NCBI GenBank assembly: GCA_017403265.1 | Contig: JAFQOJ010000064.1 | Location: 1-49,769 of the forward strand | Length of the DNA: 49,769 nt | Direction of reading: 5' to 3' | Origin: Clostridia bacterium | GTDB taxonomy: Bacteria > Bacillota > Clostridia > Oscillospirales > Acutalibacteraceae | Shown here: positions 3,921-35,469 of the stretch, one piece after another | Layout: each line of letters opens with the position of its first letter | Position numbering within the stretch: position 1 is the first letter of the stretch | The notes under the pieces: model-generated | Seen by the model: the letters and a program-made list of their open reading frames with translations, nothing else | Databases searched by the model: none | What the model was told of the DNA's origin: nothing | Made by a program: the position numbers and the translations under genes

Positions 3921-3947
3921 TTTACAGTATTGAATTTCTGGAAAAGT

Positions 3948-3979: not shown

Positions 3980-4008
3980 AATAATTTTTAAGGAAGGTAG
4001 GGAGTTTA

Positions 4009-6097: not shown

Positions 6098-7222
6098 ATG
6101 ATAAATCGTTTATCGCTTTCTACTCCTACGATGCACGAGGAAGAAATGGAATTTGTTAAAGAAGCTTTCCAGAAAAACTGGATTGCGCCTTTAGGATTCA
6201 ATTGTGACAATTTTGAGACCGAGATGGCTGAATATTTGTCCTTCCAAAATAACCTTTGCTGCTTGTCGTTATGCTCAGGCACAGCAGCGCTTCATTTGGC
6301 TGTTAAGCTTGCGGGTATAAGCAAAGGCGACATCGTTTTATGTAGCGATATGACCTTTGCCGCAACTGTGAATCCGGTTGTCTATGAAGGTGGCGTCCCC
6401 GTATTTATCGATTCGGAAAAAGACACTTGGAATATGGACCCTGCCGCATTGGAAAAAGCCTTTCAAAAATATCCACAAGCAAAGGCGGTTATGCTAGCTC
6501 ACCTTTATGGTACTCCTGCCAAAATGGATGAGATAGTTGCTATTTGCCAAAAACATAACGCAGTTTTGATTGAAGACGCCGCCGAAGCTCTTTCGGCTAA
6601 ATATAAAGGTCAGAAATGCGGTACCTTCGGTGAATATAACGCTGTAAGCTTTAATGGCAACAAAATTATCACCACTTCGGGCGGAGGAATGTTAATAACC
6701 GCAGATAAGGAAAGCCACGATAAAGCTTTTTACTGGGCAACTCAGTCGCGTGAGCCTTTGCCTTGGTACGAGCATAAGGAAATCGGCTACAACTACCGTA
6801 TGAGCAATGTTGTAGCAGGTATAGGTCGTGGTCAGCTTTTGCATCTTGAAGAACATCGTAGGTTAAAAACCGAAATTTATAATCGCTACATAAAAGGTTT
6901 TGAAAATTGCCCCGTTAGCACGAATCCTTATTTGGAAAATACAGTACCGAATTTTTGGCTTTCTTGTATTTTGCTTGATAAAAGCGTTAAGATTACACCT
7001 TGTGAAATTGTAGAAAAACTAAGCGAGCATAATATTGAAACCCGTCCTTTATGGAAGCCAATGCATATGCAACCCGTTTTCAAGGATAATGATTTTATTA
7101 CTGCGGAAGACATCCCAGTTAACGAAGACCTATTCGCTCGCGGACTTTGTCTGCCTAGTGATATTAAGATGACCGAAGCCGAGCAACAAACGGTTATCGA
7201 TTTAATCAAATCTTACCTTTAA
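6098..7222 (+). CDS. DegT/DnrJ/EryC1/StrS sugar aminotransferase (PglE-like)
   Basis: A PLP-dependent aminotransferase, 374 aa, that would convert a nucleotide-linked 4-keto sugar to the 4-amino sugar using glutamate. It has the family's substrate loop near CSGTAALHLA (residues 59-68), the PLP-contacting EDAAEAL (159-165) and the Schiff-base lysine in FNGNKIITTSGGG (K189). The NGNKIITTSGGG segment resembles PglE, the UDP-4-keto-sugar aminotransferase of bacillosamine synthesis. It is the first gene of the operon and is followed 12 bases later by the priming transferase. The 4,6-dehydratase that would make its substrate is not in this window and must be elsewhere. The exact sugar product is inferred, not seen. 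Confidence 0.88.
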   Translation: MINRLSLSTPTMHEEEMEFVKEAFQKNWIAPLGFNCDNFETEMAEYLSFQNNLCCLSLCSGTAALHLAVKLAGISKGDIVLCSDMTFAATVNPVVYEGGVPVFIDSEKDTWNMDPAALEKAFQKYPQAKAVMLAHLYGTPAKMDEIVAICQKHNAVLIEDAAEALSAKYKGQKCGTFGEYNAVSFNGNKIITTSGGGMLITADKESHDKAFYWATQSREPLPWYEHKEIGYNYRMSNVVAGIGRGQLLHLEEHRRLKTEIYNRYIKGFENCPVSTNPYLENTVPNFWLSCILLDKSVKITPCEIVEKLSEHNIETRPLWKPMHMQPVFKDNDFITAEDIPVNEDLFARGLCLPSDIKMTEAEQQTVIDLIKSYL

Positions 7223-7234: not shown

Positions 7235-7873
7235 ATGTATGCTAAATTCTTTAAACGAATAATTGATTTTTGTCTTAGCCTTTTTGCGCTGATTGTTTTA
7301 TCCCCTGTTTTGATTGTTTTAATTGTTTTAGGGGCAATTGGTATGAAGGGAAACCCCTTTTTCACACAATTACGACCTGGCAAAAATGAAAAGATTTTCA
7401 AGCTAATAAAATTCCGTACAATGACCAACGCAAAGGATAGGGATGGTAATCTACTCCCCGACGAAAAACGCCTTACAAAATACGGAAAGTTTTTGCGCTC
7501 AACCTCACTTGACGAATTGCCCGAGCTTTTGAATATTTTAAAGGGCGATATGGCGATAGTGGGGCCAAGACCGCTGCTTGTCGAATATTTACCCTACTAC
7601 ACCGAAGAAGAAAAGCACCGCCACGACGTCCGTCCAGGACTTACAGGACTCGCGCAGGTGAACGGGAGGAATGCCATCGCAAGTTGGGAAGAACGTTTTG
7701 AATACGATTTAGAATACATAAAAAATTGTTCCTTAAAGCTCGATATTTCCATTCTTTTCAAAACCGTGTACAAGGTTATCAAAAAGAGTGATATTCTTGT
7801 CGGCAACGAAATTTTAGCAGGCAGACTTGACACCACAAGAGGAGAGAAAACACATGCAAATATCGATTCGTAA
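7235..7873 (+). CDS. priming phosphoglycosyl transferase (PglC/WcaJ-type sugar transferase)
   Basis: A monotopic phosphoglycosyl transferase, 212 aa, which moves a sugar-1-phosphate from a UDP-sugar to undecaprenyl phosphate at the inner face of the membrane and so starts the repeat unit. One hydrophobic re-entrant helix is at residues 11-35. The core motif KFRTM is at about 59-63. The catalytic Asp-Glu pair is in SLDELPELLN (D93-E94), and the family's GPRPLL and RPGLTGLAQVNGR follow. It is the short PglC-like form, without the extra N-terminal membrane helices of WcaJ. Its place between an aminotransferase and an acetyltransferase suggests that the first sugar is an N-acetylated amino-deoxy sugar. 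The next gene starts inside its 3' end. Confidence 0.93.
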   Translation: MYAKFFKRIIDFCLSLFALIVLSPVLIVLIVLGAIGMKGNPFFTQLRPGKNEKIFKLIKFRTMTNAKDRDGNLLPDEKRLTKYGKFLRSTSLDELPELLNILKGDMAIVGPRPLLVEYLPYYTEEEKHRHDVRPGLTGLAQVNGRNAIASWEERFEYDLEYIKNCSLKLDISILFKTVYKVIKKSDILVGNEILAGRLDTTRGEKTHANIDS

Positions 7874-8384
7874 ATTTTGTAAAGATGATATTGAAAATAA
7901 AGTAAAGTGGATAAACGACCCACAAAACAATACATATTTGCATTACGATTTACCGCTCGAGTATGAAAAAACTGCTATTTGGTTTGAAAATATAAAAAAC
8001 AGAAATGACAGATACGACGGTGTGATTTTAGTTGATGGTGTCGCAGTCGGTTTAATCGGCCTTTTGCAAATTGACCGTAAAAATAGTAAGGCAGAAATTT
8101 ATATTGCTTTGGGAGAGCAATCAGCAAAAGGTAAGGGTGTTGCTAAAAAAGCACTGCAATTAATGCTTGAATATGCTTTTGCGACACTTGGTTTGAACAA
8201 AATTTATCTTTGCACAGAGGTAAATAACCTTGTAGCACAGGCTTTATTTGAAAAATCAGGCTTCAAAAGAGAAGGCTTACTTAAAGAAGATTTAATATAC
8301 AACAATAGAAAGGTGGACAGATATTTTTATGGACTTACCGCAGAAGAATTCACTGTTCAAACCAACAATAATAGAGCAAATTAG
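7854..8384 (+). CDS. GNAT-family N-acetyltransferase
   Basis: A 176 aa acetyltransferase of the GNAT fold, RimJ/RimL-like. The acetyl-CoA loop is seen as EQSAKGKGVAKKAL, and the C-terminal region has LCTEVNNLVAQALFEKSGFK. I chose the ATG at 7854 rather than the in-frame ATG at 7827, because AGAGGAGAG lies 6-7 bases before it and the fold begins at MQISIRKF. It overlaps the end of the priming transferase by 20 bases and the next gene by 56. Given the neighbours, it probably acetylates the amino group made by the aminotransferase, a job done in other bacteria by PseH (GNAT) or PglD (hexapeptide fold). This is inferred from context. Confidence 0.85.
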   Translation: MQISIRKFCKDDIENKVKWINDPQNNTYLHYDLPLEYEKTAIWFENIKNRNDRYDGVILVDGVAVGLIGLLQIDRKNSKAEIYIALGEQSAKGKGVAKKALQLMLEYAFATLGLNKIYLCTEVNNLVAQALFEKSGFKREGLLKEDLIYNNRKVDRYFYGLTAEEFTVQTNNNRAN

Positions 8385-9276
8385 TTCGCTTGGCGATAAT
8401 TGTATTTTTGTTAAAAGGGATGATTTGCTACCATTTTCTTTCGGTGGTAACAAAGCGAGGAAAGCGGTGTATTTCTTTGACGAAATACTTCGCGGTGGCT
8501 ATGATTCTGTAGTCACTTACGGCAGTAGCAGCTCCAACCATTGTCGCGTTATAGCCAATATGGCTTGCAAGTACGGACTAATCTGTTATATTGTTTCCCC
8601 CGAAGAAGAATACACCGAAACCTTTAACAGTATTTTAGTTAAAAGCTTTGGAGCTAAAATCGTAAAAGCTCCGTTAGACGAAATTTCGCAAACTATTGAT
8701 GCTTTGATGAATGATTTATCCAAAATAAGCAAACCGTACTTTATCCAAGGCGGTGGTCACGGAAATTTAGGCACTAAGGCCTATGTGGACGCATACAACG
8801 AAATTTGCGACTGGGAAAAAGAAAATCACATTTACTTCGATTATATTTTTCACGCTTCCGGCACCGGCACCACTCAGGCAGGCCTCGTTTGCGGTGCGGT
8901 GCTTAAGGGCGATAATAAAAGACAAATTGTGGGAATAAGTATTGCCCGTCCAAACCCCCGTGGCAAACAGGTGGTTGAGCAAAGTGTGCAAGATTATCTT
9001 GAAAGCGTTAACTACGATGGAGAAGTGCCAAATATTATATTTGACGATTCTTACATTTGCGGTGGATATGGCAAACACACACCCGAAATTAAAGAAACAA
9101 TCCACCAAATGCTTTGCCAAAACGGAATACCGCTCAACGCCACCTATACAGGCAAGGCTTTTTGGGGTATGACCGAATTTATTAAAAAAAATAACATTAA
9201 AAATAAAAATATTCTTTTTGTACACACAGGCGGTAGCCCCTTATTTTTCAATGATATAAAGGAGAAATTTCTATGA
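8329..9276 (+). CDS. PLP enzyme of the ACC deaminase/D-cysteine desulfhydrase family
   Basis: A fold-type II PLP-dependent enzyme, 315 aa. The PLP lysine is in GGNKARK (K42). The conserved SSSSNHCR (67-73) and the phosphate-binding HASGTGTTQAG fit the family of 1-aminocyclopropane-1-carboxylate deaminase and D-cysteine desulfhydrase, as does HTGGSP near the C-terminus. Family members open or eliminate small amino acids, and some act as racemases or ammonia lyases. Such an enzyme is not a standard part of a polysaccharide locus. It overlaps the GNAT gene by 56 bases and the next gene by 4, so it is translationally coupled to both. I infer that it makes or modifies an amino acid used by the two ligase-like enzymes downstream. 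The ATG is preceded by AAAGGTGG. Confidence 0.85.
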   Translation: MDLPQKNSLFKPTIIEQISSLGDNCIFVKRDDLLPFSFGGNKARKAVYFFDEILRGGYDSVVTYGSSSSNHCRVIANMACKYGLICYIVSPEEEYTETFNSILVKSFGAKIVKAPLDEISQTIDALMNDLSKISKPYFIQGGGHGNLGTKAYVDAYNEICDWEKENHIYFDYIFHASGTGTTQAGLVCGAVLKGDNKRQIVGISIARPNPRGKQVVEQSVQDYLESVNYDGEVPNIIFDDSYICGGYGKHTPEIKETIHQMLCQNGIPLNATYTGKAFWGMTEFIKKNNIKNKNILFVHTGGSPLFFNDIKEKFL

Positions 9277-10799
9277 AATTCACATATAGTGTAAACAAAA
9301 ACTTACCTCCTTTAGCTTGGATTGCCGAATATGAAAACGGAGATATAAAAATTTTATGCGGTGAAAATGTTGAAATTTTCGATAATTTCTTTGTTTCTGG
9401 TGCTTGGAGTGGTGATTTTGATGATAAACTTTTTGAAAAGTCAGAGTGGTTTTGTGGCACAGGTGGAAAAATTGAAGGCAACCAAATTATCTTTTCAACC
9501 CCCACACATGTAACAGAAGGTTTGTATTTATCCGAATGTGATAAACAGAAACTAGTTATATCCAATAGCCTTTATTTGCTTATGGCTAAGCTTAATTATC
9601 ACTTAGATGTCGATTATCAAGGATATGAAACCGATTTCAATACAGTTACCTTAGGTATCAACAATTACAAAAAAGAAATCAATGTGCTTGATGACGAAAA
9701 TAACATCGCAACGATAAAAATTTTCTATTACAGAAACATTATCATAAGCAACGATAATACTTGGAATGAAATTATTAAGTCATCTGTAGCGCCTTTTACC
9801 AATTTTAATAATTATTACACTCGCTTGTTGAGTGCTATGACACAATTACAAATAAACGCTAACAGTCCTAAACGCAAACATAAATATGGCGTTGTTTCTA
9901 CTGTTTCACGCGGTTACGATGCGCCTTGTTGCGCGGTTATTGCCAAAAAAATCGGTGCAAAAACAGCAGTTACTTTTAAGGCGACCGGTAAATATGCACA
10001 AGATAGTGGTGTAGAAATAGCCAAAGCCTTAGGTTTTGAAAATATATTGGAACGTCATCCTGATGCTTATAAAACTTCAACTGATTTTATTGAAGCTTAT
10101 TATTTATGCACAGGCGAGCTTGGTGCATCAATATCCTTTTCTGCTTTTTCACAAGATTTTAAAAATAATCTTGTCTTCACTGGAGAACGCGGCGACTCAA
10201 TATGGAACTGCCATGCCCAAGGACGAAACAACGCTTTTTGTTTCAAGACTTCAATCTTAAGCCATTTAGGTATGTCTGAAAAACATTTATGGGATGGCTC
10301 CATTACGGTTCCTATGCCTTTGTTTGGTGCAACTGCATGGGAAAGTATTTACAACCTTTCTAACAGTGAAGAAATGACACCTTGGCGGTTAAATAATAAT
10401 TACGATAGACCTATTTCACGCAGAATATGTGAGGAGGCTGGCTTAAAAAGAAACGATTTTGGCGTTTCAAAACATGGAGCGGGATTTATATATAGATATG
10501 ACACTCTGAAACGAATAAAATCCAGGATGTCTTCCTACTCTGCTAAAAGTTTTCACAATTTTGTTAAAGCCAACCGCAAGCTGCATCTAATACAAAAAAT
10601 TTCATATTATTATAAAATGCGTAAATTTTATTTTTTGTTTATGCTTGAAAATTTAAAACTTGATAAATTAGGTGTTAGAATGGAGTTTCCTAAACCGGAA
10701 TTTTTAGTTGCAACCCCAAACCCTAACTCTCCAAGATATTTAATTCCTTGGGCATCTAGTATTATCTTAGAAAAGTATGAAAACATTTTAAGAGGGTAA
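9273..10799 (+). CDS. asparagine-synthetase-like PP-loop enzyme without glutaminase cysteine
   Basis: A 508 aa protein whose middle matches the ATP-pyrophosphatase (PP-loop) domain of asparagine synthetases. The loop is STVSRGYDAP (S212, G214, D216), a variant of SGGxDS with Ala in place of the last Ser. A second nucleotide-site motif, TGERGDSIW, lies at 303-311 (AsnB has GEGSDE). The roughly 190-residue N-terminal part could be a decayed glutamine amidotransferase domain, but residue 2 is Lys, so the catalytic N-terminal Cys is absent. That pattern is known in beta-lactam synthetase, which forms amides from amines already present on the substrate. The likely chemistry is therefore ATP-dependent amide formation, with unknown partners. 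It overlaps the PLP enzyme by 4 bases and precedes an ATP-grasp gene by 8. Confidence 0.72.
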   Translation: MKFTYSVNKNLPPLAWIAEYENGDIKILCGENVEIFDNFFVSGAWSGDFDDKLFEKSEWFCGTGGKIEGNQIIFSTPTHVTEGLYLSECDKQKLVISNSLYLLMAKLNYHLDVDYQGYETDFNTVTLGINNYKKEINVLDDENNIATIKIFYYRNIIISNDNTWNEIIKSSVAPFTNFNNYYTRLLSAMTQLQINANSPKRKHKYGVVSTVSRGYDAPCCAVIAKKIGAKTAVTFKATGKYAQDSGVEIAKALGFENILERHPDAYKTSTDFIEAYYLCTGELGASISFSAFSQDFKNNLVFTGERGDSIWNCHAQGRNNAFCFKTSILSHLGMSEKHLWDGSITVPMPLFGATAWESIYNLSNSEEMTPWRLNNNYDRPISRRICEEAGLKRNDFGVSKHGAGFIYRYDTLKRIKSRMSSYSAKSFHNFVKANRKLHLIQKISYYYKMRKFYFLFMLENLKLDKLGVRMEFPKPEFLVATPNPNSPRYLIPWASSIILEKYENILRG

Positions 10800-10807
10800 T
10801 TTCCGAT

Positions 10808-11764
10808 ATGAACATTCTGATTTTAAGCTGTGGTACGCGAAATAAGGTTGTGCAGTATTTTAAAAAAGAATTTGAAGGTGAAGGCAAGGTTATCGCTACC
10901 GATATGAGTGAGCTTGCCCCTGCCCTTTACGAAGCCGATAAATTTCACCTTGTGCCCCGTATTACTGAAAAGGGATATATCGACAAAATACTTGATATTT
11001 GCCAAAAAGAAAAAATTAACGGTGTGCTTTCGCTTATCGACCCCGAGCTTTCATTGTTGGCAGAAAACAAAGCTCGTTTTGATGAAATCGGTGTTACTAT
11101 AATCGGCTCAAGCTACGAATTGTGCGAACGTACACTCGACAAAATGCAAATGTTCCAGTGGCTTAAAGACAACGGCTATAAATGTGCTAAAAGCTATACC
11201 GACAAAGACTTATTTTTAGCCGACCTTAACGCAGGTAAAATCACCTTCCCCGTTTTTGTAAAACCCGCACGTGGCAGTGCTTCTATTTCGATAAGCAAGG
11301 CAGACGACTTAGAAACCGCTCTCTTTTTATTTGATTCGGGAGAAAATATGATGATACAGGAATTCTTGCACGGACAGGAAATTGGCGCCGACGTTTATAT
11401 TGATTTAATTTCCCGAGAAGTTGTTTCAATCTTCACCAAAAAGAAAATTTTAATGCGTGCAGGCGAAACCGATAAAGCCGTTTCCTTTAAAGATGAGAAG
11501 TTGTTCGCTCTTATTGAAGAATTTGCCCTTAAAAGCGGTTTTGTAGGTCAAATTGATATTGATATTTTCGATATCGGCGGCGAATATTATATTTCCGAAG
11601 TAAATCCCCGTTTTGGCGGTGGCTATCCCCACGCTTTTGAATGCGGTTGCAACCACATGGCGCTTATCAAAAACAACCTTGCAAAAAAAGCAAACCCAAA
11701 AAGCATAGGCCATTATAAAGAAGGCGTTTATATGATGAAATACAATGAAATTATGATAAAATAA
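10808..11764 (+). CDS. ATP-grasp ligase
   Basis: A 318 aa ATP-grasp protein of the carbamoyl-phosphate-synthase-like group. Residues 1-110 form a Rossmann-like pre-domain starting MNILILSCGT. The ATP-binding segment VFVKPARGSASIS contains K152. The adenine-contacting IQEFLHGQEIGADV and the metal-binding SEVNPRFGGGYP (E264, N266, R268) follow. These enzymes join a carboxylate, through an acyl-phosphate, to an amine or thiol. In this operon it most likely attaches an amino acid or other acid to an amino sugar, or makes a small amide building block together with the upstream PP-loop enzyme. The substrate is not predictable. It is followed 9 bases later by a glycosyltransferase. Confidence 0.85.
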   Translation: MNILILSCGTRNKVVQYFKKEFEGEGKVIATDMSELAPALYEADKFHLVPRITEKGYIDKILDICQKEKINGVLSLIDPELSLLAENKARFDEIGVTIIGSSYELCERTLDKMQMFQWLKDNGYKCAKSYTDKDLFLADLNAGKITFPVFVKPARGSASISISKADDLETALFLFDSGENMMIQEFLHGQEIGADVYIDLISREVVSIFTKKKILMRAGETDKAVSFKDEKLFALIEEFALKSGFVGQIDIDIFDIGGEYYISEVNPRFGGGYPHAFECGCNHMALIKNNLAKKANPKSIGHYKEGVYMMKYNEIMIK

Positions 11765-11773
11765 GGGAATTTT

Positions 11774-12889
11774 ATGAAAATTTTATACGTTACTACCATT
11801 GGTAGCACAATGGGATTCTTTAAAAATTTAATAAATGAGCTTATACTTGCAGGACACACGGTAGATATTGCAACAAACGAAAGCATTACTCCTGTCAATG
11901 AAGATTACAAAAAAGCGAATTGTAAAATTTTCCCAATCTCCTGCACCCGCTCGCCCTTGAACAAGGGTACGTTTAGAGCTATTAAGGAAATCAGGCAAAT
12001 TGTGGCTGAAAATGATTATGATATTGTTCACTGCCACACCCCCATTGCCGCTATGTGCACCCGATTGGCTTGTAGGAAATTCCGTAAAAACGGCGGTGAG
12101 GTTTTTTACACCGCCCACGGTTTTCACTTTTACAAGGGTGCACCCCTTAAAAATTGGCTTATGTTCTACCCAATTGAAAAAATTTGCTCATTCTTTACCG
12201 ATGTGCTAATAACCATAAATACTGAAGATTTCGAATTTGCAAAAAAGCACCTTAATGCTCAAAAAACCGAATATGTGCAAGGTGTAGGTATTGACACAAA
12301 ACATTTTGCCGATACAGTGGTACAAACCGAAGAAAAACGAGCCGAGCTAGGAATACCAAATGACGCTATTTTACTAACATCAGTAGGTGAACTTAACCAA
12401 AATAAAAACCACCAAATTATTTTACGCGCTATGGCAAAGCTTAAAAATGATAATATCCACTACATAATTGCAGGTACAGGCGAAAACGCTGATAAGCTAC
12501 TCGCCTTAGCAAAAGAATTAAACCTTGAAAAGAACTTTAAATTATTGGGTTACCGCACAGATATTGCGGAAATTTACAAAGCTTCGGACATATGCTGTTT
12601 TCCCTCAATCCGTGAAGGCTTAGGGCTTGCCGCCGTTGAAGGTATGGCTACGGGACTTCCTGTTATTGCCGCCAAAAACCGTGGAACCCGTGATTTTTGC
12701 AAAGATGGAGTCAACGGATTCTTGTGCATGCCATTTTCTACTGAAGAATTTGCAGATGCAATTACTAAAATTATAACAGACTTCAAACTTGCAAAAACTA
12801 TGAGCGAAAATAACAAATCTGCCGCGTTACGATTTGATGTTGGCGCAATAAATAAGAAAATGCATAATTTTTACGGCATTAAAAAATAA
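11774..12889 (+). CDS. glycosyltransferase family 4 (GT-B)
   Basis: A 371 aa retaining GT-B glycosyltransferase. The N-terminal acceptor domain begins MKILYVTTIGSTMGF and includes HCHTPIAA. The C-terminal donor domain begins near LLTSVGELNQNKNH and contains the EX7E element of GT4 enzymes as EGLGLAAVE, followed by GMATGLPVIA. The overall pattern resembles EpsD-type enzymes of exopolysaccharide loci. It probably adds the second or a later sugar to the lipid-linked repeat on the cytoplasmic face. Confidence 0.9.
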   Translation: MKILYVTTIGSTMGFFKNLINELILAGHTVDIATNESITPVNEDYKKANCKIFPISCTRSPLNKGTFRAIKEIRQIVAENDYDIVHCHTPIAAMCTRLACRKFRKNGGEVFYTAHGFHFYKGAPLKNWLMFYPIEKICSFFTDVLITINTEDFEFAKKHLNAQKTEYVQGVGIDTKHFADTVVQTEEKRAELGIPNDAILLTSVGELNQNKNHQIILRAMAKLKNDNIHYIIAGTGENADKLLALAKELNLEKNFKLLGYRTDIAEIYKASDICCFPSIREGLGLAAVEGMATGLPVIAAKNRGTRDFCKDGVNGFLCMPFSTEEFADAITKIITDFKLAKTMSENNKSAALRFDVGAINKKMHNFYGIKK

Positions 12890-12906: not shown

Positions 12907-13407
12907 ATGCCCAAAGTAAAAATTTCAAAACCAGAACAATTTTTTAAGTCTTTTATACAACATTACAACCACGAAAAGTATTGGCGCTATCGCGAAAAAG
13001 TAATAAACTGCCGAATAGGCAATGCGGTTACAGATAATATTCGACTGTGGTATATTAAACGTCAGGATGCATTCAATAATGCTTCTATGGGTACTCATCG
13101 TAACTTCGGCGCACAATTTGCGACACCTCCGAAGTTGCCCCACGGATTGAATGGGATAATTGTTTCGCACAATGCAGTAATCGGTAAAAATGCAACTATT
13201 TTTCATCAGGTTACCATAGGTGAGGGAAAAGGTGGGGCACCAACAATTGGTGATAATGTTTTAATCGGTGCTGGTGCTAAAGTAATAGGTAAAATAAAAA
13301 TCGGCAATAATGTGCGTATAGGTGCTGGTTGTGTAGTATCCTGTGATATTGCCGATAATTGCACTGTTGTGCTCGAAAAACCTCGAATAATTATAAGGGA
13401 AGGATAA
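12907..13407 (+). CDS. serine-acetyltransferase-like hexapeptide O-acetyltransferase
   Basis: A 166 aa left-handed beta-helix acetyltransferase of the serine acetyltransferase subgroup. After an alpha-helical N-terminal half, hexapeptide repeats run from about residue 85 (IIVSHNAVIGKNATIFHQ) to 150 (GNNVRIGAGCVV). It includes the catalytic-type histidine in VSHNAVIG and the GEGKGGAP loop seen in CysE. It is shorter than CysE, lacking most of its N-terminal helical domain. Such short proteins in glycan loci usually acetylate a sugar hydroxyl rather than serine. A true serine role cannot be excluded given the PLP enzyme upstream. Confidence 0.83.
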   Translation: MPKVKISKPEQFFKSFIQHYNHEKYWRYREKVINCRIGNAVTDNIRLWYIKRQDAFNNASMGTHRNFGAQFATPPKLPHGLNGIIVSHNAVIGKNATIFHQVTIGEGKGGAPTIGDNVLIGAGAKVIGKIKIGNNVRIGAGCVVSCDIADNCTVVLEKPRIIIREG

Positions 13408-13411
13408 GTTG

Positions 13412-14227
13412 ATGGCTGAATCTGTTGCTAAAATTTCGATTATTATGGGCATTTATAATTGTGCTGACACATTGGCGGAAGCGATTGACTCTATTTTGGC
13501 TCAAACCTATCCGCATTGGAAACTCATTATGTGTGATGACGGATCAGCCGATGATACATACGAAATAGCAAAGCAGTATGCCGAAAAATACCCCGAAAAA
13601 ATTATAGTTATTAAAAACGAAAAAAATAAGGGGCTTAATTATACGCTAAACCATTGCCTTAAATATGCTGATACTGAATATATCGCCCGTATGGACGGCG
13701 ACGATATTTCTTTGCCACAACGTTTTGAAAAGGAAATTGAGTTTTTAGAAAATAATCCACAATATTCTATTGTTAGCTGCCCGATGATTTACTTTGATGA
13801 AACCGGAGATTTTAGAACAGGCAAAGTTTCAGGCGAGCCGAATATCAACAATATTGCAAAGGGTACTCCCTTTTGCCATGCACCGTGTTTAGTTAAAGCC
13901 GAAACTTACCACGCCGTAAACGGATATGCGGTTGACGATAAACGCCTTCGTGTTGAAGACTGGGATTTGTGGGTAAGGATGTATGAAAAGGGCTACCGCG
14001 GCTACAATTTATCCGAACCGCTTTATAAAATGCGTGACGACCGCAACGCTTACTCGCGCCGCAAATTCAAATACCGCATTAACGAAGCAAGAGTAACGGC
14101 ATCCGCCATCAAAAAATTGAAACTTTCAAAGAAATATTATATTTGGATGCTACGACCGATTATAGTTGGGTTGTTGCCAAAATCTATTTACACTTTTTTA
14201 CACAAAAGAAAACTTTCAAAGAGGTAG
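13412..14227 (+). CDS. glycosyltransferase family 2
   Basis: A 271 aa inverting GT-A glycosyltransferase. It has the nucleotide-binding start ISIIMGIYNCADT, MCDDGSADDT and the metal site ARMDGDD with the following ISLPQRFEKE. The acceptor region includes VEDWDLWVRM (the ED-type catalytic base region). I chose the ATG at 13412 over the adjacent TTG at 13409, because AAGGGAAGG is then 8-9 bases away. It resembles the GT2 at 18553 around IARMD and SLP.RFEK, so the two are probably old duplicates. The sugar is unknown. Confidence 0.88.
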   Translation: MAESVAKISIIMGIYNCADTLAEAIDSILAQTYPHWKLIMCDDGSADDTYEIAKQYAEKYPEKIIVIKNEKNKGLNYTLNHCLKYADTEYIARMDGDDISLPQRFEKEIEFLENNPQYSIVSCPMIYFDETGDFRTGKVSGEPNINNIAKGTPFCHAPCLVKAETYHAVNGYAVDDKRLRVEDWDLWVRMYEKGYRGYNLSEPLYKMRDDRNAYSRRKFKYRINEARVTASAIKKLKLSKKYYIWMLRPIIVGLLPKSIYTFLHKRKLSKR

Positions 14228-14230
14228 GAT

Positions 14231-14947
14231 ATGATACCCAAAAAAATTCATTACTGCTGGTTTGGTGGAAACCCACTCCCAAAAACCGCTGTTAAATGCA
14301 TTAACAGCTGGAAAAGGTATTGCCCAGACTACGAAATAATCGAATGGAACGAAAGCAATTTTAATATCAATATGAACGGATATACTCGTATGTGTTATGA
14401 GCAAAAAAAATTCGCTTTTTTAAGTGATTATGTTCGTTTGCTTGTTGTTTATCAAAATGGGGGTTTGTATTTTGATACAGATGTTGAAGTAATAAAAAAT
14501 CCCGATTTTTTGTTAGAAAACGAATCATTCTTTGGTTTTGAAACAGGCGATGGTGAAAATAAAAACGCTAATGTAAATACCGGCCTCGGATTTGGTTCTG
14601 TAGCAAATGGTACTGCTTTAGAAATGATGTTGAAGGAATATGACCATTTGTTAGATGGGAAGCAAGGTGTTGTTATGTGCCCAAAGCTTAATACCGCAGC
14701 GCTTGAAAAATTAGGTTTAGTGCGTGACGGTACATACCAAAAATTCGATTGGGGTATAGTTTGCCCTAAAGAATATTTTAACCCATATGAAAGTACAACA
14801 GGGCGACTTAACAAAACCAAAAACACTGTGTCAATTCACTGGTATATGGGCAGTTGCCTTACCAAAACTCAAAAACTACGTTCAATAATAAGCAAACCTT
14901 TTCACCGAATATTCGGTAACGAATGCTTTGAATTTTTAAAGAAATAA
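14231..14947 (+). CDS. GT32-type glycosyltransferase (DXD sugar-binding family)
   Basis: A 238 aa glycosyltransferase of the sugar-binding-region-DXD type (GT32, related to Och1 and capsule enzymes). It begins IPKKIHYCWFGG, the usual N-terminal signature. The central AFLSDYVRLLVVYQNGG is followed by LYFDTDVEV, which holds the DXD metal-binding aspartates. The C-terminal SIHWYMGSC carries the expected histidine. The length is normal for bacterial members. It lies 3 bases behind the preceding GT2 and 16 before an acetyltransferase. Confidence 0.88.
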   Translation: MIPKKIHYCWFGGNPLPKTAVKCINSWKRYCPDYEIIEWNESNFNINMNGYTRMCYEQKKFAFLSDYVRLLVVYQNGGLYFDTDVEVIKNPDFLLENESFFGFETGDGENKNANVNTGLGFGSVANGTALEMMLKEYDHLLDGKQGVVMCPKLNTAALEKLGLVRDGTYQKFDWGIVCPKEYFNPYESTTGRLNKTKNTVSIHWYMGSCLTKTQKLRSIISKPFHRIFGNECFEFLKK

Positions 14948-14963
14948 ATCAAGGATTTTTGAT

Positions 14964-15515
14964 ATGATTAAATATTTTTTCAAAAAACTTTTATATAGAA
15001 TTCGCGGACAACACACCACCGAGCATTTGCAAAAACTTGGTATGAAAGTTGGCAAAAATTTCAACCGGCTTCACGACGTAACCCTAGACCCTGCACACTG
15101 TTGGTTGATTTCTATCGGCGATAATGTAACAATGGCGCCGTATGTTCACATCCTTGCCCATGATGCAAGCACCTGTTATTCGTTAGGCTATGCGAAGATA
15201 GGTAGGGTAAATATTGGCAACAATGTATTTATCGGTGCTAAAAGTATTGTGTTGCCAAATGTGAATATTGGTGACAATGTGATTATTGGTGCAGGCAGCG
15301 TTATAACTCGGGATATTGAATCAGGCAGTGTTTATGTCGGAAACCCCGCTGTAAAAATCATGGATTACGACACCTATATCCAAAAACAAAAAGCTAAAAT
15401 GACCGACAATAATATTTTTGGCGAAGAATACACGCTACGGAACAAGAATATAACCCAAAAACAAAAGGACGAAATGTTTGAAACATTAGAGCAAGGCATA
15501 GGCTTTGTAAAATAG
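14964..15515 (+). CDS. hexapeptide-repeat O-acetyltransferase (WcaF/maltose-acetyltransferase type)
   Basis: A 183 aa left-handed beta-helix acetyltransferase. Hexapeptide turns run from SIGDNVTMAPYV to the repeats IGNNVFIGAKSI and IGDNVIIGAGSV. The catalytic histidine is in HILAHDAS. The typical closing SGSVYVGNPAVKI is followed by a helical tail. It would transfer acetyl from acetyl-CoA to a hydroxyl of one sugar in the repeat unit. It is the second hexapeptide acetyltransferase of the operon and belongs to a different subgroup from the one at 12907. Confidence 0.88.
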   Translation: MIKYFFKKLLYRIRGQHTTEHLQKLGMKVGKNFNRLHDVTLDPAHCWLISIGDNVTMAPYVHILAHDASTCYSLGYAKIGRVNIGNNVFIGAKSIVLPNVNIGDNVIIGAGSVITRDIESGSVYVGNPAVKIMDYDTYIQKQKAKMTDNNIFGEEYTLRNKNITQKQKDEMFETLEQGIGFVK

Positions 15516-15524
15516 AGGATTATT

Positions 15525-16397
15525 ATGATATCTGTCTTCACGCCCACGTATAACAGAAAAGAACTTTTAAAAAGATTATATTCGAGCTTATTACAACAAA
15601 CCGATAAAAATTTCGAATGGATAATCGTGGATGATGGTTCTTCCGATAATACAAAAGAACAAGTGGAAAACTGGATTTCTGAGAAAGAAATTGATATAAA
15701 ATATCGCTGTCAAAAAAACTCCGGAAAACATGTAGCTTTTAATAATGGTGTCAATTTGGCTTCGGGGGATTTGTATTTCTGCGTAGATTCTGATGATTTT
15801 CTACCAAATGATGCTATTGAAATAATAAGTAACGCATCAATGGATGAAAACTTTAAATCTGCAATAGGTATAATTGGCTTAAAAATCGATACCAAAGGAA
15901 AACAATTAAGTGACGATTTGCCAAAAAATATTGTACTTTCAAAAACCTATGAACTATCTAATAAATATTCTTGCAAAGGCGAAAAAACAATCATCTATAA
16001 AACAGAAGTTTTAAAAACACATTCTTTCCCTGTTATAGAAAACGAGAAATTTATCGGTGAATGCGTATTGTACGATAAATTGGATGATTTAGGGCCTATG
16101 TACCTTCTTGATAAAGTATTAACTATTTGCGAATACCAAGAAGCTGGTTTGTCAAACCTTTTTTTTAAAATTATGCTGAATAATCCTATTGGATTTAAAG
16201 TTTATCACAAACAACGAATAGATATGGTTTCTTCTTTAAAAGAACGAATAGGGCATGCCACACGCTATAATGCATTTAAATTTATGTCTTCGGATACTAA
16301 ATATAATTATCATGGCAAACACAGAGTGCTTGCTTTCTTGACTATAGGCTTGGGATTTTTATTAAAACTATATTATCTTTCAAAAAAATCTAATTGA
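15525..16397 (+). CDS. glycosyltransferase family 2
   Basis: A 290 aa GT-A glycosyltransferase. It begins ISVFTPTYNRKELLKRL, with WIIVDDGSSDNTKEQ for nucleotide binding, NSGKHVAFNNGV, and the metal site FCVDSDDFLP. The C-terminal third is basic and probably associates with the membrane. The start ATG follows AGAGGATT at a short distance after the previous stop. It is one of several GT2 enzymes in the operon. The NSGKHVAFN form is typical of capsule transferases in Firmicutes, but the donor cannot be read. Confidence 0.88.
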   Translation: MISVFTPTYNRKELLKRLYSSLLQQTDKNFEWIIVDDGSSDNTKEQVENWISEKEIDIKYRCQKNSGKHVAFNNGVNLASGDLYFCVDSDDFLPNDAIEIISNASMDENFKSAIGIIGLKIDTKGKQLSDDLPKNIVLSKTYELSNKYSCKGEKTIIYKTEVLKTHSFPVIENEKFIGECVLYDKLDDLGPMYLLDKVLTICEYQEAGLSNLFFKIMLNNPIGFKVYHKQRIDMVSSLKERIGHATRYNAFKFMSSDTKYNYHGKHRVLAFLTIGLGFLLKLYYLSKKSN

Positions 16398-16409
16398 TGA
16401 GGTTGATTT

Positions 16410-17552
16410 ATGCAATCACTTTTTTACATAGGAATTCTATCGATTCTATGGGTAGTAAATCTTTTTAACGGAACAGGTCTTGATGCTGTTTATCATGTTA
16501 CTGACTATGCAAAAATAATAATTATTACATTAACGGCGTTTTCAATTTGTTCTTCTTTCCAAACAAAAGGAGATATACGTATAAAACGTTCTGATTTTAA
16601 TATTTATGGCGGTATGTTGCTTGTTTTTGTTAGTAGTAGCATAATCAATGGTTTTGGAATGCAAGCACTTGATTATTTATGGGTTTTCTGTATTATTTAT
16701 TTGCTTTCAAAAATTCCTATAAATAATACAATTTTATTATGGACGGGTTTGATTTACGGATTTTTAGGTGCCGTAATCCTTTATATATATAATTTTGGGA
16801 ATCTTCTTGATGGTTGGAACGAAAACTCTATCGCAATGCTTGGAATGCATAGCTTCTTAATACTTATAGTGCCATTCTTTGACCGAACAAGTATTAGAAG
16901 CAAAGTTATGTTACTTGTTACAACCGCATTATTTTCATACCTTATTTCTCCTACCAATTCTCGTTCGGGAATTTTGTTTTTAATTATTGCAACGCTATTC
17001 GCATTGAATATTTTACCAAGAAATTTATTAACTAACGGGAAATATCGACTTGTTTTATTACTCTTTATACCGTTAATAATTGTTGGAGTCGTTTGCTTAA
17101 TTGCGAATTCACATTTCTTTGATTCTTTAAACAATTGGAGTATAACAAAATTTCACAAACCAATTTTTAACGGACGCGACGAAATTTGGCTTGAAGGCTT
17201 TGAAATGCTATTTAAAAACCTGTTTATCGGTTGTGGAAATCTTATAACTCTTAACTGGCATAACAGTGCAATACACTGTCTTACTGCCTATGGCATAGTT
17301 GGCTACTCTTTTTGGTTGGCAAGCTTTCACAAACTTTTATACTCAGCTAAAGAATGGTTCGAAGACTCCGTTGTTTGCGGTTGCTTCATTTCATTTTTAG
17401 TTCTTTGGATTCAGCAATCGGTTGAATTGGGATTTATATCAAATTCTCCAAGCCTATTACCATATATTATTTTAGGGCTTATGTTAGGAAGAATTTGGTT
17501 TTTAAATAATATAACTACGACTACTTTGGATAAGGAAAGAAAATATGCCTAA
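16410..17552 (+). CDS. Wzy-like O-antigen/capsule polymerase
   Basis: A 380 aa protein with about ten hydrophobic segments and one larger external loop near residues 245-290. The loop contains NGRDEIWLEGFEM and LNWHNSAIHCLTAYG, the arginine- and histidine-containing loop features of the Wzy/WaaL superfamily. It would join undecaprenyl-linked repeat units after they are flipped by the Wzx protein at 22981. No Wzz-type chain length regulator or tyrosine kinase is present in the window. The last 8 bases overlap the next glycosyltransferase gene. Confidence 0.82.
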   Translation: MQSLFYIGILSILWVVNLFNGTGLDAVYHVTDYAKIIIITLTAFSICSSFQTKGDIRIKRSDFNIYGGMLLVFVSSSIINGFGMQALDYLWVFCIIYLLSKIPINNTILLWTGLIYGFLGAVILYIYNFGNLLDGWNENSIAMLGMHSFLILIVPFFDRTSIRSKVMLLVTTALFSYLISPTNSRSGILFLIIATLFALNILPRNLLTNGKYRLVLLLFIPLIIVGVVCLIANSHFFDSLNNWSITKFHKPIFNGRDEIWLEGFEMLFKNLFIGCGNLITLNWHNSAIHCLTAYGIVGYSFWLASFHKLLYSAKEWFEDSVVCGCFISFLVLWIQQSVELGFISNSPSLLPYIILGLMLGRIWFLNNITTTTLDKERKYA

Positions 17553-18549
17553 AATCAGCGTAATTATCCCCGTCTATAATGCAGAGGGACTTTTAACAAA
17601 ATGTGTCGAATCTGTTTTTGCTCAAACCGAAATTGATATTGAAGTCATTCTAGTGAATGACGGTTCTACCGATAATAGCGGCACACTATGTGATGAGTTT
17701 GCTCAAAAAGACAGCAGAATAAAAGTAATCCATCAAGAAAATCAAGGAGTAAGTGCCGCCCGCAATAATGCACTTGCACAAGCCACTGGCGATTTCATCG
17801 GCTTTGTAGATTCGGATGATTATGTTCACAGCAATATGTTCAAAAAAATGCTTAAAACGGCAGAAGAAACCAACGCAGATATTGTTATGTGCGATGCACT
17901 TACAGTGTACGACAACGGCAAAACCGAGCTGGATACGATAATGCAGTTATCAGAAAATCGAATTTTGGAAAAATTCGATTTTACGCCATCGTTATTATTG
18001 GAGATGGCGGGTTCCGCTTGGCGTTGTATCTATAAAAATAATAGATGCAACGACAAGCTATGCAAGCAAACGCTTGCATTTCCGCTTGGCGTAAAATTTT
18101 CAGAAGACCGAATTTTTAATATTTATGCCCTTGGATATGCAAAAAAAATTGCTTATCTTAAAGAACCGCTTTATTACCGATATGTAAACTTAAAAAGCGC
18201 GGTACACCGTTTTCACAGCGATTATTTTGAAGCTTATAAAAAAGCTAAATTTGAGACCGAAAAGGCTATAAAATCCGCTTGGAATGATGATGAAAAATAT
18301 CAAAAGGCATACTTGTCTCAGTTTATTACAGGCTCACTTATGGCGATAAATAACTATTATTACAAAACCTCGCCCCTCTCTTCAAAAGAGAGACGACAAG
18401 CAGTTATTGATTTGTGTAATGATAAAACCCTGCGGGAAGCCATTAAAACAAAGGGCGTTACTTCAAATCATGAGAAGTGGATACTTGGTAAAAATTACAA
18501 TTTACTAATTCTTTATGCAAAATTAGCAAATTTTAAACACAGGAGATAA
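17545..18549 (+). CDS. glycosyltransferase family 2 (EpsJ-like)
   Basis: A 334 aa GT-A glycosyltransferase with PKISVIIPVYNAEG, VILVNDGSTDNSG, NQGVSAARNNAL and the metal site FVDSDDYVH. The second half has the alpha-helical extension common in EpsJ/CpsI-like enzymes, including FSEDRIFN (catalytic-base region). Its ATG lies inside the end of the polymerase gene, overlapping by 8 bases, so translation is coupled. Confidence 0.88.
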   Translation: MPKISVIIPVYNAEGLLTKCVESVFAQTEIDIEVILVNDGSTDNSGTLCDEFAQKDSRIKVIHQENQGVSAARNNALAQATGDFIGFVDSDDYVHSNMFKKMLKTAEETNADIVMCDALTVYDNGKTELDTIMQLSENRILEKFDFTPSLLLEMAGSAWRCIYKNNRCNDKLCKQTLAFPLGVKFSEDRIFNIYALGYAKKIAYLKEPLYYRYVNLKSAVHRFHSDYFEAYKKAKFETEKAIKSAWNDDEKYQKAYLSQFITGSLMAINNYYYKTSPLSSKERRQAVIDLCNDKTLREAIKTKGVTSNHEKWILGKNYNLLILYAKLANFKHRR

Positions 18550-18552
18550 CTT

Positions 18553-19557
18553 ATGCCAAAAATCAGTGTGGTAATGCCAGCATATAATGCAGAAAAATAT
18601 ATTGCCGAAGCAATTGAAAGCATATTGGCTCAAACGTACAAAGATTTTGAATTTATTATCATAAATGACGGCTCAACTGACAAAACCGAAGAAATTATCT
18701 TATCTTACAATGACGAGCGTATTGTATATCTTAAAAACGAAAAAAATATGGGTATTGTTTATACTCTCAATCGCGGATTAGAAATTGCAAAAGGCGAATT
18801 TATTGCCCGTATGGATTCAGATGATATTTCTTTACCCAACCGTTTCGAAAAACAGTTATCCTTTCTTAAAACGCATAAAGATATTGCTGTTTTGGGCACG
18901 TCTTTCACCATTTTTGGCGAAGGAATTGAAAACTATCCATTCATCTTTTCCAGTAACTCCAAACGCGCCAAGGCAGAGCTTTTCTTCAACTCTTCATTAG
19001 GTCATCCGTCGGTAATAATTAAAAAATCGGCGCTTGATAACAATTCCTTACGATACGAAGAAGAATATAAAGGCTTGGAAGATTTTGTTCTTTGGTGGCG
19101 AATTGCAAAATATGGCAATATCGCGTCCCTTAAAGAGCCTTTGCTAAAATATCGGAAGCACAAAAAACAAATAACCTCTTCTCGCGACTTCGCTTTCGAA
19201 CAGAAATTTAAGAAGTTTCTCTTAGAAAGAGTGAATGTCTTTGATATTAATTATACAAATACCGAATTTGACTCGCTATTAAAATATTGCTTAGGGTTCT
19301 ACGACGTTTTAATTATAAATGATATCAAAAATCTAGTATCCTTATTTAAAAAGCTTTTAAAAGCCAACAAAAAACAAAAATACTTTAATAGGTATTATTT
19401 TAAAAAAGTTTTAGGCCTCGCGGTTACATATTCTATCAGCTTTTTAAATATAAGCGACAACGATAAATATAAGCTTCGTTTCTATGCATTTAAAAACGGT
19501 GTTATTTCTACCGAATTGTTTTTAAAATTAACCGCACATAAAATTTTAAAACATTAA
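18553..19557 (+). CDS. glycosyltransferase family 2
   Basis: A 334 aa GT-A glycosyltransferase. It has PKISVVMPAYNAEKYI, FIIINDGSTDKTEE, NMGIVYTLNRGL and the metal site ARMDSDDISLPNRF. An acceptor segment EDFVLWWRIAKYG matches the place of the catalytic base. It follows the previous GT2 by 3 bases. Its N-terminal half is close in pattern to the GT2 at 13412, and the C-terminal 120 residues are a basic, weakly hydrophobic extension. The sugar is unknown. Confidence 0.88.
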   Translation: MPKISVVMPAYNAEKYIAEAIESILAQTYKDFEFIIINDGSTDKTEEIILSYNDERIVYLKNEKNMGIVYTLNRGLEIAKGEFIARMDSDDISLPNRFEKQLSFLKTHKDIAVLGTSFTIFGEGIENYPFIFSSNSKRAKAELFFNSSLGHPSVIIKKSALDNNSLRYEEEYKGLEDFVLWWRIAKYGNIASLKEPLLKYRKHKKQITSSRDFAFEQKFKKFLLERVNVFDINYTNTEFDSLLKYCLGFYDVLIINDIKNLVSLFKKLLKANKKQKYFNRYYFKKVLGLAVTYSISFLNISDNDKYKLRFYAFKNGVISTELFLKLTAHKILKH

Positions 19558-19570
19558 TAAAGGTGTTCTA

Positions 19571-20743
19571 ATGAATATTTCCCATATTAACTGTTGTGGC
19601 TGCGGCGCTTGTGCCGAGGTGTGTCCCAAAAACTGCATAAAGCTTACACACAACAACGAAGGCTTTTTAAAAGCCGAAATTGATGCCAACCTTTGCATAA
19701 ATTGTGGCCTGTGCATTAAAACTTGCCCCACAAATACCACCGAAAATTCCAATAATACTATTTCGGCGTTTCAAGGCTATAACAATGATGAAAAAGTTAA
19801 AAGTAATTCTACCTCAGGCGGTATTTTTTACGAAATAGCAAAATCGGTTATTTTAAACGACGGTGTAGTTTACGGTGCCGCTTACAAAAATGACCTTTCA
19901 ATCGGTCACGTTAGAGTGGATAATATAACCGACCTTGTAAGGCTTCAAGGCTCAAAATATGCACAAAGCACAGTAAACAAATGTTACTCGGACATAAAAA
20001 CTGATTTAGAAGATGGAAAAACAGTTTTGTTTTCGGGTACTCCATGTCAGGTAGCCGCTGTAAATAATCTTTTTAAATCACAGTTTGCCGCTCAATTACT
20101 CACTGTGGATTTAATTTGCCACGGCGTGCCCTCCCAAAAGCTTTTTACCGATTATATAAAATATATTGAAAAATCAAAAAAATCAAAAATTAAATCCTAT
20201 CAATTTCGCTGCAAAGAAAAATCTACCGATTTTATAAGCTACAATACAAAAATAGTTTTCTTGAAGGCTAAAAATCCAAAAACCATAATCATCGACGGCA
20301 ACGAAGATCCATATGTTTTAAGGTTTTTATCTAATTCACTTCAAAACGATATATGCTTTGAATGTCCTTTTGCAACCGAAAGCAGGTGCTCCGACATCAC
20401 CCTAGGTGATTTTTGGGGATTTGAAAAAGCATTTCCCGAAAAGGAGAGTATTGGCAAAAAAGGTGTTTCGCTAATACTTGTGAACACTCCACTCGGCGCC
20501 GATTTATTGGATAACATTTCAAACGTCACATGTGAAAAAATACAACGCGACGATTATATAGCTTATAATTCGCATCTAACAAAACCGGCGGATAAAAATA
20601 AACAGCGTGATATTTTGTATAATCACTATGCCAAAAGCGGTTTTACAAAAACATTTTATAATAAATATTTCCTTCCACACAAATATAAAGAATATATCTT
20701 AAAAAGGCGTATTTGGAGGTTAATTAAGTGGATAAAAAAATAG
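19571..20743 (+). CDS. FrhB/FdhB-like iron-sulfur protein of glycan loci
   Basis: A 390 aa protein of the coenzyme F420 hydrogenase/dehydrogenase beta-subunit family. Two ferredoxin-type 4Fe-4S motifs open it: C8, C11, C14, C18-P and C42, C45, C48, C52-P. The FrhB-like domain follows (TSGGIFYEIAKSV, SGTPCQVAAVN, DLICHGVPS, TLGDFWGFEKA), with further cysteines at CFECPFATESRC. Members next to pyruvyl transferases occur in many anaerobe glycan loci. They are not expected to use F420 there, and their reaction is not established. It overlaps the pyruvyl transferase by 16 bases, so the two are probably made and used together, perhaps for a reductive step on a sugar. Confidence 0.87.
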   Translation: MNISHINCCGCGACAEVCPKNCIKLTHNNEGFLKAEIDANLCINCGLCIKTCPTNTTENSNNTISAFQGYNNDEKVKSNSTSGGIFYEIAKSVILNDGVVYGAAYKNDLSIGHVRVDNITDLVRLQGSKYAQSTVNKCYSDIKTDLEDGKTVLFSGTPCQVAAVNNLFKSQFAAQLLTVDLICHGVPSQKLFTDYIKYIEKSKKSKIKSYQFRCKEKSTDFISYNTKIVFLKAKNPKTIIIDGNEDPYVLRFLSNSLQNDICFECPFATESRCSDITLGDFWGFEKAFPEKESIGKKGVSLILVNTPLGADLLDNISNVTCEKIQRDDYIAYNSHLTKPADKNKQRDILYNHYAKSGFTKTFYNKYFLPHKYKEYILKRRIWRLIKWIKK

Positions 20744-21789: not shown

Positions 21790-21791
21790 AT

Positions 21792-22964: not shown

Positions 22965-22980
22965 CTGAAGGCAGGCATTT

Positions 22981-24501: not shown

Positions 24502-24519
24502 ATCAAAGGTGCGATTATA

Positions 24520-25665: not shown

Positions 25666-25686
25666 TCTCAATATTGGTGAAATATT

Positions 25687-26127
25687 ATGAATGAAAAAAA
25701 AATAATTGGTTATACAACCGGCGTATATGATATGTTTCATATCGGGCATTTGAACATAATAAAAAAAGCAAAGGCGCTTTGCGATTATTTAATTGTGGGT
25801 GTTAGCTCGGATGAATTAGTGCAAACAGAAAAAGGCAAAACCCCTGTTATTCCTTTTAAAGAAAGATTCGAAATTATATCCTCTTTAAAATATGTTGACC
25901 AAGTTGTTCCGCAATTGGATAAAAACAAATTTGCGGCTTGGGAAAAATATCATTTCGACAAAATGTTCGTCGGTAGTGATTGGCAAGGTACGGATACTTG
26001 GAATAATTTTGAAAAACAGTTCCAACCTTTAGGGGTGGAAATTGTTTATTTGCCACATACTGACGGAATTTCCAGTACACTACTTACTGAAGTTATAAAA
26101 AAAGTTTTGGATGAACAACCTGACTAA
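25687..26127 (+). CDS. tagD: glycerol-3-phosphate cytidylyltransferase-like (TagD family)
   Basis: A 146 aa nucleotidyltransferase of the cytidylyltransferase-like family, the usual length for TagD. The HIGH motif is in GVYDMFHIGHLN. GVSSDEL, VPFKERFEI-like IPFKERFEI and FVGSDWQGTDTW follow, and GISSTLL takes the place of the GISTT-type C-terminal motif. It would make CDP-glycerol from CTP and sn-glycerol 3-phosphate for the TagB-like transferase upstream, and possibly for the one at 34342. Confidence 0.87.
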   Translation: MNEKKIIGYTTGVYDMFHIGHLNIIKKAKALCDYLIVGVSSDELVQTEKGKTPVIPFKERFEIISSLKYVDQVVPQLDKNKFAAWEKYHFDKMFVGSDWQGTDTWNNFEKQFQPLGVEIVYLPHTDGISSTLLTEVIKKVLDEQPD

Positions 26128-26146
26128 TTATTAAGGAGCACTTTTA

Positions 26147-35466: not shown

Positions 35467-35469
35467 GGT

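Follow-up and report, generated by a model that had tools for sequence, protein, structure and literature searches.

A recurring surface-glycan gene cassette around a divergent PALP-family enzyme, and its rare AsnB-like accessory gene, in a Clostridia bacterium

The stretch of DNA analyzed here (the window) comprises 49,769 bp of contig JAFQOJ010000064.1 of a Clostridia bacterium of the family Acutalibacteraceae (GenBank assembly GCA_017403265.1). It contains a surface-glycan locus with a gene for a pyridoxal 5'-phosphate (PLP) enzyme of the PALP family, followed by genes for an AsnB-like protein (the 9273 protein, named after its start position) and an ATP-grasp ligase. The PALP and ATP-grasp genes belong to a recurring unit, DegT-PglC-(slot)-PALP-ATP-grasp, in which the slot is a variable position; the 9273 gene is a rare accessory of this cassette, and was found in the window and in three of the 80 kept loci with related PALPs. 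In the reading that we favor (probability about 0.55), the core of the cassette would build an amino acid or acyl-amino acid and attach it to a 4-amino-4,6-dideoxy sugar; a further amide would be formed by the AsnB-like protein.

Recurrence and variation of the cassette

The six genes from DegT to ATP-grasp were confirmed as reading frames, all but the 9273 gene also by Pfam matches; the original prediction had correctly placed the PALP, 9273 and ATP-grasp genes after those for DegT, PglC and GNAT:

6098..7222, + strand: DegT/LegC-type sugar aminotransferase (PF01041 DegT_DnrJ_EryC1, 314 bits; TIGR04181, 336 bits at a cut-off of 420)
7235..7873, + strand: PglC-like priming phosphoglycosyl transferase, with the Bac_transf domain of PglC-type monotopic phosphoglycosyl transferases (PF02397, 210 bits)
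7854..8384, + strand: GNAT N-acyltransferase, start codon ATG at 7854 (PF13302, 75 bits, scanned from 7857)
8329..9276, + strand: PALP, a PLP enzyme of the D-cysteine desulfhydrase / 1-aminocyclopropane-1-carboxylate (ACC) deaminase group (PF00291, 105 bits)
9273..10799, + strand: AsnB-like PP-loop protein (the 9273 protein), 508 aa, matched by profile-profile comparison only
10808..11764, + strand: ATP-grasp ligase of the NF009406 / PDB 2pn1 type (PylC-like_N, 145 bits; ATP-grasp_3, 47 bits)

The GNAT and PALP genes overlap by 56 bp. The last three genes had been described as a coupled, overlapping trio, which holds for PALP and the 9273 gene (4-bp overlap), but between the 9273 and ATP-grasp genes there is an 8-bp gap and no overlap. 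The ATP-grasp protein passes model NF009406 (521 bits; cut-off 271) and matches PDB 2pn1 (E 1e-90).

In 394 genomes of the order, PALP homologues (E <= 1e-20) comprise five at 41-56% identity, and the remainder are at most 32% identical. A search of the genome_contigs collection gave 290 stretches with PALP relatives (E <= 1e-3). The 80 best-matching ones were kept, and two of the five order relatives recur among these. The gene order DegT-PglC-(slot)-PALP-ATP-grasp was observed in most neighborhoods of the five order relatives and the 80 kept loci. For counting, the window was left out and locus L052 was dropped (same contig as L111), which gives 84 loci with one present twice (L053 is L084); where 83 loci are given, L053 was dropped as well. 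Neighbors were counted if a homologue was encoded within 10 kb on the same strand, and the fractions concern best-matching, close PALP relatives. An ATP-grasp homologue was found near the PALP gene in 79/84 loci, and directly downstream of it in 74; PglC homologues were found in 79/84 and DegT homologues in 69/84. Around 20 control PALP paralogues from the same order (27-32% identical), the corresponding counts were 0/20 for each of ATP-grasp, PglC and DegT. Within the stretches available, no ATP-grasp homologue was found in L056, L061, L075, L121 (where the contig ends 10 bp past the PALP gene) and L125, and no PglC homologue in L055, L056, L075, L098 (at a contig start) and L125; in L132 and L135, PglC is encoded downstream of ATP-grasp. 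Homologues of UDP-glucose dehydrogenase are encoded in 35 of the 83 loci. Downstream of the cassette in L054 (4273-5355), an octopine/nopaline-type dehydrogenase was recognized by eye, which could make a carboxyethyl amino acid.

The slot lies upstream of PALP, in most loci between it and PglC. It is empty in 39 of the 83 loci, and holds a GNAT in 21, a GNAT fused to the PALP in nine, a second ATP-grasp protein in seven and a FemAB-like protein in two; five slots are unassigned. Two of the three kinds of slot protein were never found together in one locus; two loci with the fusion (L082 and L119) carry a further GNAT. For the fusion, a single open reading frame, both domains were confirmed with Pfam in L063, the one scanned, and both FemAB-like proteins pass PF02388 and PF13480. 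The second ATP-grasp protein of L080 has weak scores, all under cut-off, with many ATP-grasp models, including those of the amino-acid ligases DdaF and LdmS. With the five unassigned loci left out, at least 15 changes of slot state are needed on the PALP tree. For cell-wall bridges, ATP-grasp and Fem ligases are described as alternative routes of amino-acid addition (PMC2922099).

Between the second ATP-grasp and PALP genes, a betaine/choline/carnitine-type (BCCT, betaine-type) transporter is encoded in L080 (8452-9987) and L115, and an amino-acid permease homologue in L108 (8533-9969); a permease homologue is present also in L089. These transporters hint that in some strains the attached group may be imported. 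In L055 (5245-6654), the PALP frame appears by eye to continue into a C-terminal GNAT-like domain, the reverse of the GNAT-PALP order; this domain scores under the GNAT threshold, and the locus was counted among the unassigned slots.

The PALP subfamily

The window's PALP matches PDB 7ysk (E 6e-37) and 1j0a. Its closest NCBIfam models are CuyA, ACC_deam_rel and D-cysteine desulfhydrase, each under its cut-off, with the best named-model scores for CuyA (192 bits; cut-off 450) and TIGR01275 (176 bits; cut-off 289); all three subfamily members scanned are under every NCBIfam cut-off. The PALP tree has 104 rows, of which the 84 of the subfamily (the window and 83 loci) are set apart from the 20 controls by a split of 100/99, at a point where, as the program warns, long branches meet. 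Tree, slot labels and adjacency derive mostly from the best 80 of the 290 relatives. The row nearest to the window is L057 (64% identity), whose locus encodes DegT, PglC, GNAT, PALP and ATP-grasp; no AsnB-like gene was found in this locus nor in its genome (G825).

When 82 subfamily rows were compared with the controls (L055 and L056 were left out as outliers), K42, N70, H71, R73, Y247, Y273, K276 and the TGG motif at 300-302 were found to be common to both groups, including what we take, from the family, to be the PLP lysine and other functional positions. The positions switched in the subfamily include Y64, N77, G141, H144 and R207. The retention of the shared positions, together with the many switched ones, fits an altered substrate and not a lost activity; since so many other positions are switched, the PALP is probably no housekeeping D-cysteine desulfhydrase. 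We infer that the switched positions line the pocket of the enzyme and that its substrate has changed. D-cysteine desulfhydrase, ACC deaminase and CuyA are like the window's PALP in family, PLP lysine and other shared positions, whereas the latter is on a separate branch, is encoded in glycan loci and has switched positions.

Among 70 genomes of the window's genus, a PALP of this kind (E <= 1e-40) was found in one, the window's own, and the AsnB-like gene likewise in the window's own genome only (1/70), as expected for a variable surface locus. The order DegT-PglC-GNAT-PALP-ATP-grasp is present also in L060 (10001-10930), on a contig of 147 kb with the label Candidatus Saccharibacteria; the PALP of this locus falls next to those of the window and L057, which may be read as a transfer or as a mis-binned contig.

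The 9273 protein family

The original prediction of an AsnB-like protein stands as a distant relationship detected by profile-profile comparison, but the protein is invisible to sequence searches: the 9273 protein had no match in Pfam, NCBIfam or PDB sequences, none of the four family members matched any Pfam model up to E 10, and a search of the window's genome with PF00733 up to E 10 gave three places, none at the 9273 gene. The four-member profile gave nothing convincing against PDB sequences (best E 0.87). In hhalign, the same profile matched a profile of seven AsnB-type proteins, including lasso cyclases, with probability 90.9, E 1.1e-6 and a score of 58.9, over columns 118-371 of the AsnB set. 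These columns take in the second part of the glutaminase domain as well as the PP-loop and GDG-DE. In the controls, a PALP profile reached probability 1.1 and a NadE profile 4.6 (score 27.5, mainly over the loop); 60 column shuffles scored at most 26.0, and the reversed profile 16.5. The AsnB case rests on the comparison of profile with profile; when the four-row profile was compared with individual E. coli sequences, the probabilities were 1.2 (AsnB), 0.1 (GuaA) and 0.4 (NadE).

The predicted variant loop, SRGYDA, is present in the window's protein, and reads SSGYDA or SSGYDS in the three relatives; it aligns with the AsnB loop SGGxDS. The reported lack of the N-terminal catalytic cysteine was borne out, with no cysteine at position 2 in any of the four members; L063 and L099 have one at position 3. 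In AsnB, Cys2 is the catalytic residue that takes ammonia from glutamine, and beta-lactam synthetase functions without it. Within the amide-forming PP-loop group of AsnB, beta-lactam synthetase and lasso cyclases, the 9273 family aligns with the AsnB-type proteins over part of the N-terminal-nucleophile (Ntn) domain and the PP-loop, and its GERGDS motif aligns with GDG-DE of AsnB; beta-lactam synthetase, to which the family is likened by general description, also has no catalytic cysteine. In contrast to the AsnB group, the family has no PF00733 match and a variant loop, S-[RS]-G-Y-D-[AS]; furthermore, the first part of the glutaminase domain is unmatched and the C-terminal half cannot be aligned. 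If the favored reading is right, the 9273 family would be a new candidate amide-forming enzyme.

The three relatives (L063, L099 and L134) are 34-42% identical to the window's protein, and their genes always follow DegT and PglC. L063 and L099 are close kin with alike flanks, in which the AsnB-like gene lies between PALP and ATP-grasp, as in the window; in L134 it follows ATP-grasp with a 4-bp overlap and is cut by the contig end. The proposed three-gene unit is found again in unchanged order in L063 and L099 and rearranged in L134, with the AsnB-like gene as a rare add-on; its conservation in other genomes is mixed, as the PALP/ATP-grasp pair is strongly kept and the full trio is seldom found. 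The presence of the AsnB-like gene calls for three changes on the PALP tree, and it was therefore probably gained or lost more than once. All four members co-occur with GNAT-type slots (a GNAT, free or fused, is present in 30/83 loci), and are too few and too closely related for this to be given weight.

With the 9273 protein alone as query, a match at E 1e-3 was found among 60 related genomes in its own genome only; beside its own genome, 394 genomes of the order gave 26 weak matches with E values of at most 1 (0.007 for the best), and 398 genomes of the phylum gave eight with E values of at most 0.05 (0.0015 for the best). Four weak loci of the order search were opened (L003, L010, L012 and L015), and nothing like the 9273 protein was recognized in them by eye; the genome sets overlap, and their counts are not additive. 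No relatives were found in the plasmids, phages and viral contigs searched, nor among 42 matches of a pattern search in genome_contigs. Apart from the known members, later profile searches of 348, 70 and 255 genomes gave a single weak match, a protein of 631 aa in G1034 (E 2.7e-4) that looks like an ordinary AsnB. No gene of the 9273 family was encountered outside of the cassette in the genomes searched, with the weak matches partly unopened; three of the four members were found through PALP neighborhoods, which favors a location in the cassette.

Proposed reactions, alternatives and the wider locus

ATP-grasp enzymes join carboxylates to amines, and PglC loads a sugar on a lipid carrier. In the reading that we favor, the surface-glycan locus would begin from a lipid-linked 4-amino sugar, which would be decorated with an amino-acid-type group; the originally proposed link between such a group and the amino sugar is likewise inferred here. 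A PglF-type 4,6-dehydratase encoded elsewhere in the genome (a PglF-like frame of 611 aa is on contig 33; the window is contig 62) and the DegT aminotransferase would yield UDP-4-amino-4,6-dideoxy-N-acetylhexosamine, the likely DegT product. The PALP would make or reshape an amino acid, and the GNAT, as its gene context suggests, may acylate this amino acid or the sugar amine. The NF009406-type ATP-grasp would then activate the carboxylate as acyl phosphate and couple it to the 4-amino group, either before or after transfer of the sugar to undecaprenyl phosphate by PglC. In the window and in the three relatives, the glutaminase-less AsnB-like protein would adenylate a further carboxylate, and then form an additional amide, for which an amine or free ammonia would be the partner. 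The acceptor of this step is probably the amino-acid moiety, because the stretches examined around L063, L099 and L134 revealed no homologue of UDP-glucose dehydrogenase (L134 is contig-cut; the window itself was not searched).

Several observations weigh against this reading. The identity of the carboxylate and of the amine that it is joined to is a guess, and the ATP-grasp family is named by a generic model only. The slot is empty in the 39 loci mentioned, and the slot step is therefore not essential. In L056, with a PALP of 40% identity, the 17 kb examined encode no PglC and no ATP-grasp, and neither was found within the examined stretches of L075 and L125; lower-ranked PALP relatives, outside the best 80 of 290, may behave differently. 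As for the 9273 family, its C-terminal half alone has no detectable AsnB similarity (probability 0.4), the single 9273 sequence reached a probability of only 4 against the AsnB set, and L134 has no GERGD motif.

A more far-reaching version, which we regard as possible but doubtful, is a ribosome-independent, miniature peptide-assembly line at the priming end of the surface-glycan pathway, such that the first lipid-linked sugar would bear a small non-proteinogenic peptide. A dedicated PLP enzyme would make the unusual amino acid, and the GNAT would cap or extend it, a role taken elsewhere by an ATP-grasp that resembles dipeptide ligases or by a FemAB-like protein; one ATP-grasp would join the amino acid to the 4-amino priming sugar, and the new, glutaminase-dead AsnB-type family would add the second amide.

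The best-scoring models for the PALP are those of lyases and deaminases (D-cysteate sulfo-lyase, D-cysteine desulfhydrase, ACC deaminase), and an AsnB-like protein without Cys2 would have no access to the usual glutamine-derived ammonia; the PALP might thus act as a lyase and provide a small product such as ammonia or pyruvate, and simple carboxamides might be formed from the ammonia by the ATP-grasp and AsnB-like proteins. We consider this unlikely: an AsnB-like homologue was not found in the examined stretches of 80 of the 83 PALP loci, the PALP differs from its paralogues at many positions, and the nine GNAT-PALP fusions are better explained by a common substrate than by a source of ammonia. 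It is rather improbable, too, that the GNAT simply N-acetylates the sugar amine in the manner of PglD or PseH, with PALP and ATP-grasp modifying a different, later sugar or a carboxylate of the chain. Such a division of tasks would agree with the nearest sugar-acetyltransferase model of the GNAT, PseH (53 bits, under the cut-off of 93), with the UDP-glucose-dehydrogenase homologues in 35/83 loci, and with an ATP-grasp enzyme of Campylobacter that amidates a sugar acid of the chain (PMC11800379); it is at odds with the position of PALP and ATP-grasp directly after PglC in most loci, with the presence of the PALP also where the slot is empty, and with the absence of a UDP-glucose-dehydrogenase homologue from the examined stretches of the three relatives with the AsnB-like gene (L134 being contig-cut).

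Two further explanations concern the 9273 protein. Its rarity (one of the 70 genus genomes, and elsewhere only the three cassette relatives) and the loss of the GERGD motif in L134 would suit an inactive or unrelated passenger in a hypervariable locus. This is very improbable, as all four members are within the same cassette (three were found via the PALP, which favors this), as their presence needs three changes on the PALP tree, and as long open frames and the PP-loop are retained at just 34-42% identity to the window's protein (L134 being contig-cut). D-cysteine desulfhydrases release sulfide and several PP-loop enzymes are thiolating enzymes, so that the PALP could free sulfide for thiolation of a carboxylate or sugar, leading to a thio-glycan; we give this hardly any credence, because the profile fits the AsnB type, including part of the Ntn domain (score 58.9), and not NadE (27.5, mainly the loop), and no PP-loop partner of the 9273 family was found in 80/83 loci.

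PglF-PglE-PglD-PglC, LegC, and PseC/PseH are steps of the bacillosamine, legionaminic acid and pseudaminic acid pathways, respectively. These pathways share with the window's genome a dehydratase, a DegT aminotransferase, a GNAT and a PglC-like transferase, whereas PALP and ATP-grasp are extra, the DegT protein is under the NCBIfam cut-offs for LegC (TIGR04181) and PseC, and the GNAT is under that for PseH. ATP-grasp enzymes in surface-glycan loci, likened here by description only, include the ATP-grasp domain of Campylobacter Cj1438 (Cj1438C), which forms amides on a capsule sugar (PMC11800379), and CA_C2189, which is given in a listing as an amino acyl ligase of the ATP-grasp type from a sugar locus (PMC4000134). 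Cj1438C is described as TupA-like and as amidating glucuronic acid, unlike the ligation to a 4-amino sugar proposed for the window, and the excerpts of the two sources describe no PLP partner or PglC context for either enzyme. No paper on a PALP-PglC-ATP-grasp cassette was found among the top-ranked full-text matches, outside of which most subscription journals lie, and its absence from the literature is unproven.

PALP relatives are common, as the 290 stretches illustrate; the best 80 are nearly all labelled Bacillota, and many are titled as rumen, caecum or other gut isolates. Culturable bearers of the cassette include a Butyrivibrio isolate, Ruminococcus albus KH2T6 and Halobacillus faecis. 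If the proposed decoration is correct, many gut and rumen Lachnospiraceae would bear amino-acid-decorated surface glycans, and the slot genes would allow the decoration to be predicted from sequence.

In the window, the run of surface-glycan genes spans 6098-27337 on the + strand, with Pfam matches for most, and continues after the cassette with:

11774..12889, + strand: GT4 glycosyltransferase, the next gene of the glycan locus (PF00534, 150 bits)
12907..27337, + strand: remaining surface-glycan locus (Pfam of 10 proteins, plus a hexapeptide protein at 12907-13407)

The Pfam scan of the latter part, which leaves out the proteins at 14964, 17545, 18553 and 21792, revealed glycosyltransferases, a Wzy-like protein, a pyruvyl transferase, a Wzx-like flippase, a CDP-glycerol glycerophosphotransferase, a cytidylyltransferase, an NTP_transf_5 protein and the hexapeptide protein. 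An FrhB/FdhB-type iron-sulfur protein adjoins the polysaccharide pyruvyl transferase within this locus (19571-21789; Pfam). Outside of it, the following were recognized by eye: a tripartite ATP-independent periplasmic (TRAP)-type transporter, with binding protein and fused permease, just 5' of the glycan locus (2964-5952); a separate, second surface-polymer cluster with a teichoic-acid-like transferase, a LicD-like protein, an ABC transporter pair and a GT2 glycosyltransferase (34342-38791); and two neighboring metallo-beta-lactamase-fold proteins on the - strand, an apparent tandem duplicate (27450-29128).

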